Assembly (NCBI RefSeq): GCF_040784935.1
Contig: NZ_CP160680.1
Span: 124,001-188,000 of the forward strand
Direction of reading: 5' to 3'
DNA: 64,000 nucleotides
From: Lewinella sp. LCG006
Lineage (GTDB): Bacteria > Bacteroidota > Bacteroidia > Chitinophagales > Saprospiraceae
The position numbers and the translations under genes are program-made. Below are positions 4,095-14,719 of the stretch, in pieces; the first letter of the stretch is position 1, and the number at the start of each line of letters is the position of its first letter. Below the pieces are notes generated by a model that was not told where the DNA came from, made no database searches, and saw only the letters and a program-made list of their open reading frames with translations.

Positions 4095-4185
4095 TTATTC
4101 AGTAAAGATGATCCTATTCATTTTCAATACATTACACATCCGCTGCAAAGACTTACATGTATCACACATTTTAAATTTAACATTC

Positions 4186-9850: not shown

Positions 9851-11671
9851 TTATTCGATTATTGATTGTATTTTCATAAATGCATTTTTAAGAATCTCAA
9901 TATTCTCAATTTCTTCTTTAGTCAAATCAAAAGCAATTTCGGACGCAATTTCTGGTTTACCTATATTTCTTTTACATAAGGTACTAATTAATCTTCTCAA
10001 GTCCTTTGAAAATTTAACACTATTCCTAATAGATTCAAAATCATTTATTGTCCATTCACTTTCATCGTCTTTCACGAATGCTCTAGTGCAGGTATTTTTT
10101 AATTGTATATTTGTAAAAACATCTTCAAACTCTTTAGCCCCAATAAAAAAACAATGATTTTCTAAAAAATCATCATCAAATCCAACCTCTCGTAATTTTG
10201 ATAATGTTACTTGGTTTTTTGAATTCGGAAACTGAGTATCCTTGTCAAGTAGAAGGATCGTACAATCTTTTTTATTTTTATGAAGAAACTTTAGTGCGTT
10301 ACTCCATTGGCCATTTGTCTGAAGGTTTATCAGTACGATACCATCTTCTATTAGATCTTTTTTAGTAAAAGTTTTATACAAAATAGGTATAGCATTTTGC
10401 TCACTCTCACCTTCAACAAGAAGGAAGCATTTTTCATAAAAAATGCTACTATTTTTGATTCCGCTAATTTCAGAAATCTTAGATAAAAATTGTCTGATGT
10501 CTTCGCTTTCATCAGTATCCAAATATAAGATTCTTGATTTTTCTTCTACTTCATTTCTTAAAACATGATTAATATTGTTAGCAGGGGCCCTATCAATCAT
10601 AGTTAATGAGTGAGTACAAATAATAGATTGAATATTCAAAGATTCATCTTCTGCTAAATCTCGAATTACATAGAACATCTTTCGTTGAGCGTCATAGTGA
10701 AGATTAGAATCAGGCTCGTCATATCCTCGGATTAAAAACCTATTCGAGTCAGCTGTTGCATTTATTTCAGCATCCCATTCAAGTATAGATAGAAAAATTT
10801 TCTTTTTCGAGCCTTCTCCTATTTGAGAAATAGATTTCTCTTTGCCCGAAGCATCAATAATGTTTAATCCAAAGAAAGAGAGTCCTCTTGAAAAATCAAT
10901 ATTGTAATTTCCTTTAATTATATCTATTTCAGGCTTGTACTTTTTAATATGCCCTAGTAATTGATTTTCTAATTTATTGTCTAAATCTGAGGTTATATTT
11001 CTTTTCAAGCCTTGAAAACTCTCTTTAAGCACCTCATTCCCGTCTTCATCTTTTTCATAGAATGAATTTCTGTATACAATTTCTAAAGTTTTTCTAATAA
11101 TACCTTCTGGATTTCCATAATCGCTTGACGAGAATCGTTGAAATATTGGCAGGTGATTAACAATACTATTGTATCTAATTTCTTGCCAAATTCTAGTTTT
11201 TGGTAACTCATGACGTTTTAGATAATCCTCGACAGCACCTTTTCTTTCAGCTTGATTTGATTTTCTATCAATTCCATATCGTTCTAATAGAGCTTTAAGT
11301 TCAGGCGCGTTTAAATCATTGTAATTATTAAGCTCATTATCTGAGTATACTTCTAGATAACAGAAATACTTTGACGATTCTGATTTCGGTATAATTCGCC
11401 TAATTTTTAATTCCCCATCCAAAATAAATTTAGAAATATCTACATTTTCACTAGATGGTGTTAAAGTCAATTCAATTTGAATAGCATCAGCATCATCTCT
11501 AAAGTCTTCATCTCCTGGATTTTTATTGTTCAAAATAATTTCAATCGCATCAAAAATAGTTGACTTACCTGCATCATTTTCGCCTATAAAAACCGTGAGA
11601 TTATGAAATGGAATTTCTCCCGAATCTTCATAACACTTCAGGCCTTTGATGGATAATTTTTTCAGCTTCAT
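9851..11671 (-). CDS. OLD-family AAA ATPase/TOPRIM nuclease
   Basis: 606 aa from the ATG at 11671; a TTG at 11692 would overlap the previous gene and is less likely. An ABC-type ATPase head occupies residues ~1-365: Walker A GENDAGKST at 30-38, signature SQIGEGSKKK at 282-291, Walker B region FLIRGYDEPD ending near 321, and H-loop THSLT near 353. A TOPRIM nuclease domain follows: LLVEGESEQNAI (Glu near 421), LLLDKDT (Asp476, Asp478) and KEFEDVF near 515. This is the overcoming-lysogenisation-defect layout seen in GajA and in retron or PARIS-type defence proteins, which cut DNA in an ATP-sensitive way. No GajB-like helicase is present. The partner gene ends 2 bp upstream. Confidence 0.85.
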   Translation of the reverse strand: MKLKKLSIKGLKCYEDSGEIPFHNLTVFIGENDAGKSTIFDAIEIILNNKNPGDEDFRDDADAIQIELTLTPSSENVDISKFILDGELKIRRIIPKSESSKYFCYLEVYSDNELNNYNDLNAPELKALLERYGIDRKSNQAERKGAVEDYLKRHELPKTRIWQEIRYNSIVNHLPIFQRFSSSDYGNPEGIIRKTLEIVYRNSFYEKDEDGNEVLKESFQGLKRNITSDLDNKLENQLLGHIKKYKPEIDIIKGNYNIDFSRGLSFFGLNIIDASGKEKSISQIGEGSKKKIFLSILEWDAEINATADSNRFLIRGYDEPDSNLHYDAQRKMFYVIRDLAEDESLNIQSIICTHSLTMIDRAPANNINHVLRNEVEEKSRILYLDTDESEDIRQFLSKISEISGIKNSSIFYEKCFLLVEGESEQNAIPILYKTFTKKDLIEDGIVLINLQTNGQWSNALKFLHKNKKDCTILLLDKDTQFPNSKNQVTLSKLREVGFDDDFLENHCFFIGAKEFEDVFTNIQLKNTCTRAFVKDDESEWTINDFESIRNSVKFSKDLRRLISTLCKRNIGKPEIASEIAFDLTKEEIENIEILKNAFMKIQSIIE

Positions 11672-11673
11672 TT

Positions 11674-11988
11674 TTACGAAAATTTCCCCCAATCTCTTTT
11701 AACGAACCAATTTGGGCTCCAAGTTATATAGTCGGCTGGATCAAAATGTTCCGTTAATACTTCTAAATTCACAACTTGTTCAGGATGTATAGAAAGTGTA
11801 TGTTTTCCATCAGGGCTTTCCAAGTCATAAGTATGGTATCTATCAGGGTTATCCTTTAGATTTCTTCTAGAAGGTCCATAATCAAAAGGGATACAAACCC
11901 TTGAAATTCTACCCTTAGACTTCGAATCAAAGGTGATTTTCACTTTTCTTTTGTCATGTATTGCCTGAATAAATGCTTCCTTTATCAT
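11674..11988 (-). CDS. 104-aa partner of OLD nuclease, WYL-like
   Basis: 104 aa, no family firmly recognised. It starts MIKEAFIQAIHDKRKVKITF, like the first helix and strand of WYL-type SH3-like regulatory domains, has a central YHTYDLESPDGKHTLSIHPEQVV strand pair (only its ends quoted), and ends in the aromatic-rich YITWSPNWFVKRDWGKFS. No signal peptide or membrane segment. Its stop codon is 2 bp before the nuclease ATG, so the two are translationally linked. A role as regulator or sensor for the nuclease is inferred from operon structure alone. It is AT-rich, like its neighbours. Confidence 0.65.
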   Translation of the reverse strand: MIKEAFIQAIHDKRKVKITFDSKSKGRISRVCIPFDYGPSRRNLKDNPDRYHTYDLESPDGKHTLSIHPEQVVNLEVLTEHFDPADYITWSPNWFVKRDWGKFS

Positions 11989-12128: not shown

Positions 12129-12235
12129 ATCTGACAGCTAACTCAAAGGCCTGTCTGCGCCCTCACCTCCCAAAGCTCTTCACCATCCTATCTCTAGCGC
12201 AGACAGGTCAGTCGACGACGGCCAAATCCTTTGGC
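12129..12235. repeat. Inverted repeats at the right edge of the nuclease cassette
   Basis: ATCTGACAGCTAAC at 12129-12142 is the inverse of GTTAGCTGTCGGAT at 9823-9836 (13 of 14), so the two-gene nuclease operon is bracketed by matching ends. Just beyond lies an 11-bp stem (CCTGTCTGCGC 12150-12160, GCGCAGACAGG 12197-12207) and a small hairpin GCCAAA-TCC-TTTGGC (12221-12235). The remaining 12236-12601 holds no gene I can see; it contains an AGCCT/AGGCT arm pair near 12500-12550. Confidence 0.5.
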
Positions 12236-12601: not shown

Positions 12602-14215
12602 TTAAGCAATTTCATTTGCAACTTGTGAGACGCCGACTGTTACTAAATCTCTAAGGTAGGCATCAATATTTTTTCTTAAGTTGTCAGGTGTAGCATCTAA
12701 TGAGATAGTGTAGGGTTCAATCGGTATCGGCATTAAAGAATATGTTTCATCTTCATATCCAGATTGCCCTTGAACACGTTTTTTATGTTCTAAAAAACCT
12801 CCAATGGCTAGAATTGAGTCATCATAACTGTAGTGGTGAAGAGTTATTATCAAACTGTATTCTACATCTTCTCCTAGCTTAAACTGAAACTTAAACCACC
12901 CTCTGGGCAAACTCCTGTTAAAAAAATAATCGTGCTGATTTGCATACTCAATAATTTGCTTAGTATAATAATAGTTTTTTTCCTTGTCAGGATAAACACT
13001 TTCGACGTAAATCTTTGCCTTATCTTTTGGGATAACCTCAAAAAGTTCGTTCTTAATCTCTCCAATTAATTGATAACACATATCAAAAATGGCAACTCTA
13101 TTATCTGACAGCTGCTGTTGTCGTTCTTGTTCATTTTGTTCCCTTAGAGTGTCAATCTTTCCTGACAGAGCCTTTGCTGCGTCCAGTAAACTTGTAGTTG
13201 GCTTTGACTTGTAATTAAATACTCCCTCAATACTTTTCTTTTGTAGTTCACTGAAAAACTCTACTAACAACTTGGGATTACCATTATCGGCCGCTTCTAA
13301 CGCATCTATATAGCGAGGTTTATCTTCTCTTTTTATCGTTAAAGGAAAAAGGCCGTGCTTAATAAGAATAACACTTGCAAGAAGCCGTGCAACTCTTCCA
13401 TTTCCATCTTGGAAAGGATGTATTTGTGTAAAAGCATGATGCAACCAAGCAGAAATTATCACTGGATGAACCTCACTTTCGACTAATTCATTATAAATTT
13501 CAAGTAGTTTATCGATTTCCACATCAACTTGTACAGGAGGGCAATACTTAAAAACGGAACCATCATCCCTCTTGGGATTATTAGGAAATTCCTTAAACTT
13601 ACCACTTATAAGTTTTACTTGGACATTATTTCCAAATTGATCAATTGCTTCAGTTGTTTCTTGGTTTTGAGTAAGCAACTGATGCAATTGCTTTATAAAG
13701 GATTTAGATAATGGTCTCTCGTTTTTTACAAGGTCAAAAATAAAGTCAATAGCCTCAAAATGATCCTTAAGGTAGGCAAATAGCTTTCGAGGAGAAATAT
13801 TTGTGTCTCCATGTTGTAGGTAAGACTCGACAAAACCTTCCTTAATAAAAGTTTGAGTAATTCCTTCACTTAAATCATATAATTTTTCTACAACGCCAGT
13901 TTCAATCGCATGTTGCCGTTTGAGACGGCTTAAAAATTCTTCATAGTCGCTATTACCTTCTTGTAAAGTATTTCTCTTTCTATACCAAGTTGGTAAAATG
14001 TCATCTAATTTTGATGTATCTGCCTCTAACCAATTTTCACTAAAAGATATTGGCTTCCAAATTTCAATTTCCTTGCTATCAACTGAATCCATCTTTTCTT
14101 TCTTAGATTTTAAAATCTTTCTAGTTCTGTCCCTTTTAGACTTTCTACTTCGCAATTTACCATAAGATTTTCTAAATATTTTTCCTCGCTTTGTTTTTTT
14201 ATCTCCTTTCCCCAT
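12602..14215 (-). CDS. Fic protein with bTHX-like ribosomal N-terminus
   Basis: 537 aa. The Fic core spans residues ~100-330, with the catalytic motif HPFQDGNGR at 266-274 (His266 is the AMPylation base); a helix with AIETGVVEKLYDLSEG near 103-118 is where Fic proteins of this class carry their self-inhibitory or substrate-gating segment. The first ~26 residues start MGKGDKKTKRGKIFRKSYGK, which reads as small-subunit ribosomal protein bTHX, followed by a very basic linker to residue 41. The frame is continuous; a start at Met42 would drop the tail. Residues ~350-537 form an unrecognised C-terminal domain. Fic enzymes transfer AMP or other nucleotides to proteins; the tail suggests action on or near the ribosome (inference). 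No FicA-type antitoxin is adjacent. Confidence 0.85.
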   Translation of the reverse strand: MGKGDKKTKRGKIFRKSYGKLRSRKSKRDRTRKILKSKKEKMDSVDSKEIEIWKPISFSENWLEADTSKLDDILPTWYRKRNTLQEGNSDYEEFLSRLKRQHAIETGVVEKLYDLSEGITQTFIKEGFVESYLQHGDTNISPRKLFAYLKDHFEAIDFIFDLVKNERPLSKSFIKQLHQLLTQNQETTEAIDQFGNNVQVKLISGKFKEFPNNPKRDDGSVFKYCPPVQVDVEIDKLLEIYNELVESEVHPVIISAWLHHAFTQIHPFQDGNGRVARLLASVILIKHGLFPLTIKREDKPRYIDALEAADNGNPKLLVEFFSELQKKSIEGVFNYKSKPTTSLLDAAKALSGKIDTLREQNEQERQQQLSDNRVAIFDMCYQLIGEIKNELFEVIPKDKAKIYVESVYPDKEKNYYYTKQIIEYANQHDYFFNRSLPRGWFKFQFKLGEDVEYSLIITLHHYSYDDSILAIGGFLEHKKRVQGQSGYEDETYSLMPIPIEPYTISLDATPDNLRKNIDAYLRDLVTVGVSQVANEIA

Positions 14216-14269
14216 TAAAATAGTTTATAAAGTTATCTTACTTGCTTGCAACTTACTTATATGCGATCA

Positions 14270-14279
14270 CCCCCCCCCC
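14270..14279. repeat. Ten-C homopolymer upstream of the Fic gene
   Basis: An uninterrupted run of ten C residues lies 55 bp upstream of the Fic start on its coding strand side. Long C/G tracts are slippage-prone and in promoters can give phase-variable expression. No promoter boxes can be assigned with certainty. Confidence 0.5.
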
Positions 14280-14584: not shown

Positions 14585-14719
14585 GAATGGTACACCTAAG
14601 AGCATGTTTGGAGCTTGCTTACACCGAAAACCAAGCATTTAGCAACCTGGCTAAATCATTGATTTTCAAAAGTAATCCGCTCCAAACATGCTCTAAACAT
14701 TACCGCTTGTGTACCATTC
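14585..14719. repeat. Nested inverted repeat element
   Basis: Outer arms GAATGGTACAC (14585-14595) and GTGTACCATTC (14709-14719) and inner arms GAGCATGTTTGGAGC (14600-14614) and GCTCCAAACATGCTC (14679-14693) are perfect. The element ends 10 bp from the stop of the metal-transporter gene. The phrase ACACCTAAGAGCAT recurs near 38480, again close to a gene 3' end. It may be a MITE remnant or a terminator. The rest of 14216-14584 shows only unconvincing short frames. Confidence 0.6.

Follow-up and report, generated by a model that had tools for sequence, protein, structure and literature searches.

The genome of Lewinella sp. LCG006 (Saprospiraceae) encodes a Fic protein whose N-terminus is a bTHX domain, that is, a small ribosomal protein joined in frame to an enzyme. 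Fic-family enzymes often serve as toxins or in antiviral defence. The bTHX-Fic fusion is a real and unusual domain architecture, which came to light in a window of 64,000 nucleotides of contig NZ_CP160680.1 (Table 1). The original prediction held that the frame containing HPFQDGNGR begins with bTHX, and the profile matches and the uninterrupted 537-residue ORF bear this out, with the tag and the Fic domain (PF02661, 69.7 bits) sharing one frame on the minus strand, which the prediction had left unstated. The genome is a single 7.5 Mb contig, so a chimeric contig end is of no concern. Of the roles considered for the tag, docking of the enzyme on the head of the 30S subunit is tentatively the leading hypothesis as judged from sequence comparisons, followed by an incidental gene fusion.

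Table 1. Features of the bTHX-Fic locus (positions within the window) and the second bTHX fusion (own locus coordinates)
Feature	Position	Strand	Basis
bTHX-Fic fusion ORF, 537 aa, ATG start, no internal stop	12602..14215	-	ORF listing
bTHX tag, residues 1-27 (MGKGDKKTKRGKIFRKSYGKLRSRKSK)	14135..14215	-	Pfam Thx and TIGR04560 above curated cut-offs; shuffle control
Basic linker, residues 28-41 (RDRTRKILKSKKEK)	14093..14134	-	Resembles Lys/Arg-rich C-terminal tails of standalone bTHX
Met42, start point of untagged homologues; possible internal start (A at -3)	14090..14092	-	
T122-FIK-E126-G127, fits class II inhibitory-helix motif [S/T]xxxE[G/N]	13835..13852	-	Alignment
Fic/DOC domain, residues 168-284	13364..13714	-	PF02661, E 4.1e-19
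Catalytic motif HPFQDGNGR, residues 266-274	13394..13420	-	Homologue alignment
TAACTTTA, weak -7 element candidate, 12 bases before tag ATG	14228..14235	-	7/8 match to TAHHTTTG
OLD/GajA-like ATPase-TOPRIM gene, TTG start as listed, probable defence gene	9851..11692	-	PADLOC, Pfam
Small ORF, 104 aa, overlaps ATPase gene, no family match	11674..11988	-	
bTHX-DRT2 fusion, antiviral reverse transcriptase	L010:3118-4733 (G293:C63)		

Residues 1-27 score above the cut-offs of both curated bTHX profiles, Pfam Thx (PF17070, cut-off 29.7; E 2.2e-7 and 31.1 bits in the whole protein, 36.3 bits when the peptide is scored by itself) and NCBIfam ribo_THX (TIGR04560, cut-off 26; 44.1 bits in the whole protein, 49.4 bits for the peptide by itself). 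A profile search of the N-terminus against the bTHX family, on which the original prediction was to stand or fall, therefore gives a significant match. Scored against an HMM built from 15 bTHX sequences of other genomic loci and that of Thermus, the tag reaches 45.8 bits, whereas none of 20,000 shuffled versions of it exceeds 14.9, so basic composition does not explain the match and an artefact of this kind is rejected. Among solved chains, the nearest in sequence to the tag are Thx from Thermus and the bTHX of plastids or mitochondria. All nine positions that are invariant among 16 compared bTHX (M1, G2, K3, G4, D5, G11, K12, G19, and R22) are kept in the tag, which differs from the common residue at G16K and P23S (Gly and Pro in 13 of the 16), and preservation of the amino acids extends beyond the early codons through residue 25. 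In known bTHX the first ~26 residues are conserved and the C-terminal tail varies freely in length, so a C-terminal cargo would be a sterically sensible arrangement. AlphaFold places residues 1-24 at pLDDT < 50, as would suit a peptide that needs rRNA in order to fold, and predicts a helix at residues 17-43 with low confidence. While the bTHX profiles are matched, the 537-residue ORF is not a short standalone protein, and a separate standalone bTHX is present in the genome; the ORF thus carries a bTHX domain yet is not the bTHX gene.

The enzyme portion has the Fic signature HxFx[D/E]GNGRxxR in the form HPFQDGNGRVAR, with R277 invariant, and within an alignment of nine homologous sequences HPFQDGNGR is invariant apart from F/Y at one position. 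Thr122, Glu126, and Gly127 are likewise invariant in this alignment. They belong to the stretch TFIKEG, N-terminal to the Fic core, which fits [S/T]xxxE[G/N] and which we take to mark a class II Fic protein; with this inhibitory motif present, the protein is classed by its sequence as class II. The motif region is modelled by AlphaFold at pLDDT < 50, within a model of mean pLDDT 71 that has moderate confidence outside the tag. The best Foldseek match of the model is a Bacteroides Fic protein (3cuc, E 3.2e-9).

The composition of the locus is low in GC, with 29% in the tag, 34-35% in the Fic gene, and 30% in the nearby OLD/GajA-like gene against 46% in the window, as would be expected of an acquired defence island, and the Fic AMP-transferase was probably horizontally acquired. 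The OLD/GajA-like gene matches the PADLOC models Old (4.6e-37), AriA (4.6e-34), and GajA (1.1e-28), and has PF13175 with an OLD-like TOPRIM domain. Through this neighbor an anti-phage role of bTHX-Fic is indicated by association only. Three sequence elements flank the gene: a run of ~10 C, read as 10 G on the strand of the Fic gene, at 14270-14279, ~55 bases upstream of the tag start, which is a possible phase-variable tract; an inverted repeat with 36 nt arms and a 16 nt perfect core (AGAGCATGTTTGGAGC) at 14585-14719, in the interval that separates VIT1 from the Fic gene, which may be a small mobile element or a terminator; and, found by eye, an inverted repeat GCCTGTCTGCGC ... GCGCAGACAGGTC at 12140-12210, downstream of the Fic gene.

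The standalone bTHX gene of Lewinella sp. LCG006 lies at C1:4415.7k, and its product is 44% identical to the tag, which makes derivation of the tag from the resident gene unlikely. The distribution of bTHX in the family is patchy, with matches in 103 of 239 genomes. Three other genomes of the genus (G205, G241, and G517) gave no bTHX match above noise; these and G237 are nearly complete, with no bTHX gene detected.

The tag is a rare, single and lineage-specific addition to one Fic protein. The original prediction had named homologues starting near Met42 as evidence against it, and this is how the closest relatives (62-44% identity) begin: eight homologues of the same bacterial family (44-54% identity) begin at or near the Met42 position without a tag, as does L042 (62% identity), which was found in a species-wide scan. 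The tag is therefore no family trait, and its conservation across the Fic family is rejected. A scan of about 85,000 species genomes returned no other Fic relative with the fusion, and the tagged Fic is present in one genome only. At the other Fic loci fetched, including 80 genome-contig and 80 viral-contig loci, no bTHX match was found on a long frame. Searches with bTHX patterns gave none in viral contigs and none in phages, and on plasmids the only match was an annotated Xanthomonas THX; these searches led us to reject spread of the tag by phages or plasmids.

A survey of bTHX frames, using order, family, class, and phylum samples, identified a second enzyme fusion. The survey comprised roughly 450-500 distinct frames among the matches listed (at least about 155 entries each for order and class, plus 80 further order and class genomes); inspection of individual frames covered the long ones other than about 8-10 of 150-176 aa, mainly from the class and phylum samples. 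Among the matches listed, the only other enzyme fusion, and the only other frame of more than 210 aa with a strong bTHX score, belongs to G293, a genome from the same family. There a 352-residue ORF opens with bTHX and runs in frame into the N-terminal half of Drt2, and a frameshift at an A8 run (near 4113-4125) separates this half from the rest of Drt2. The frameshift may be an error, decay, or programmed, and the fusion may be decaying. At the nine positions without variation in the bTHX set, the G293 tag also has the shared residue throughout; a search for a standalone bTHX in this genome found none. The fusion gene adjoins a type III restriction-modification-like methylase gene. The other long bTHX frames inspected were rejected as fusions, those of G277, G189, G594, G610, and G021 being open upstream (5'-open) and those of G541, G689, and G549 ending in low-complexity Lys/Ala/Pro tails. 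Standalone bTHX with long Lys/Ala/Pro-rich C-terminal tails also occur in other families of the class (L137, L139, and L150). A search of the open library found no paper on bTHX fusions.

The DRT2 reverse transcriptase described from Klebsiella has no additional domains (PMC12039810). A tag general to DRT2 is rejected, as G293 alone is tagged among 12 genomes with DRT2-like matches and other DRT2 in the order are untagged; no DRT2 was found in viral contigs. Roughly 140-350 nt upstream of the G293 tag is a structured stretch, with a best z of about -3.8, suggestively placed where DRT2 ncRNAs are found (PMC12039810); an Rfam search for the DRT2 ncRNA gave no match, and BLAST between DRT2 leaders gave nothing convincing. 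Lewinella sp. LCG006 itself has an untagged DRT2-like reverse transcriptase (L126:746-854; C1:6273001-6274461); Rfam matches a group II intron upstream of it, so the enzyme may be a group II intron reverse transcriptase.

The bTHX-DRT2 fusion is independent of that in Lewinella sp. LCG006 and so makes a ribosome-targeted enzyme more plausible; a 30S-docking tag leads because there are two independent fusions, both on phage-defence-type enzymes. That two such fusions go beyond chance is argued after the fact from two cases, of which G293 is frameshifted. In Thermus thermophilus, Thx groups with S13, S19, and the 16S rRNA of the head (PMC3734280, PMC7535068). By the proposed mechanism, a class II Fic AMP-transferase would have gained a complete bTHX as an N-terminal tag. 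On some of the ribosomes this tag would take the place of bTHX in the 30S head, beside uS13/uS19 and 16S rRNA, with the Fic domain tethered by the basic linker close to translation factors and ribosomal proteins. Release of the inhibitory helix, e.g. on phage infection or stress, would trigger the Fic domain, which may AMPylate a translation factor or ribosomal protein at the ribosome and so slow translation, as an effector of the abortive-infection type. Against docking stand the two departures of the tag from common bTHX residues and the resident standalone bTHX of Lewinella sp. LCG006, which would compete for the site. A broader proposal, in which bTHX is a recurrent ribosome-docking tag by which unrelated defence enzymes (Fic, DRT2) ride the 30S head, there to sense translation or shut it down, the tagged enzyme being sole occupant of the site where standalone bTHX is absent (as in G293), is less likely than not.

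An incidental gene fusion is a serious contender, if a less probable one than docking. A foreign bTHX gene upstream of the Fic gene would have lost its stop codon and spacer, leaving a tag without a role or an enzyme made mostly from Met42. The start of the homologues at Met42 or its equivalent, and the uniqueness of the fusion in the species-wide scan, are as such an event would leave them, and the linker resembles a whole bTHX C-terminal tail with the start of Fic after it. Initiation contexts point the same way: Met42 has A at -3 and Met1 has T, and A at -3 is favored in initiation in Flavobacterium johnsoniae, from work that also gives the Bacteroidota -7 element consensus TAHHTTTG (PMC6847099). 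Because the Met42 context is the better one, an untagged isoform may be made from this codon. However, the tag has lost none of the invariant bTHX positions, DRT2 acquired such a fusion independently, and both cargoes are defence-type enzymes, which would rarely be expected from random fusion.

It is improbable that the N-terminus serves as a general nucleic-acid-binding tail, which would bind DNA or RNA non-specifically and tether the enzyme to the nucleoid or to phage nucleic acid. The 41 residues before Met42 are rich in Lys/Arg and overlap the low-confidence predicted helix, as such a tail might, but by the shuffle control composition alone does not yield the bTHX score of the tag. Least probable is the capture of a bTHX start region as an expression leader, with a dispensable peptide, for efficient initiation in bacteria without Shine-Dalgarno sequences: the bTHX gene is short and presumably translated at a high level, and a near-consensus -7 element lies just upstream of the tag, but it is the amino acids and not the early codons alone that are preserved, and the G293 tag is preceded by the structured stretch expected for a DRT2 ncRNA, with no recognizable bTHX promoter region.

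Fic and DRT2 effectors have so far been understood as soluble enzymes, and a ribosomal protein serving as their address label would, if true, represent a novel means of directing defence to translation. Docking is simply testable because the bTHX binding pocket is known and, if true, it would suggest a general search for ribosomal-protein tags on defence enzymes.

The fusion shares with bTHX (Thx, S31; PF17070/TIGR04560) the end-to-end match of the first 27 residues and the nine invariant positions, whereas bTHX normally measures about 26-50 aa, in some cases with a long Lys/Ala/Pro tail, and lacks an enzyme domain; the fusion adds 510 residues. With the class II Fic AMP-transferases (BT_2513, PDB 3CUC; FICD/HYPE) it has in common the HxFx[D/E]GNGR motif, the N-terminal [S/T]xxxE[G/N] motif, and the Fic fold, to which it adds the bTHX tag and a ~200-residue C-terminal region outside the match. 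Anti-phage action is known for a Fic enzyme, Sofic (PMC12249575), and the Fic core matches Sofic (SoFic) models (PADLOC E 4.8e-23), but at about 40.4 bits against a cut-off of 550 for NCBIfam NF046030 the protein is not assigned to Sofic. Nor is it a FicTA toxin-antitoxin, as the inhibitory motif sits inside the same protein; in the ORF list, no small gene was recognized directly upstream of the Fic gene. The G293 DRT2 differs in its cargo, a reverse transcriptase, and in its frameshifted ORF; like bTHX-Fic it joins bTHX in frame to the N-terminus of a defence-type enzyme, and both come from one bacterial family.
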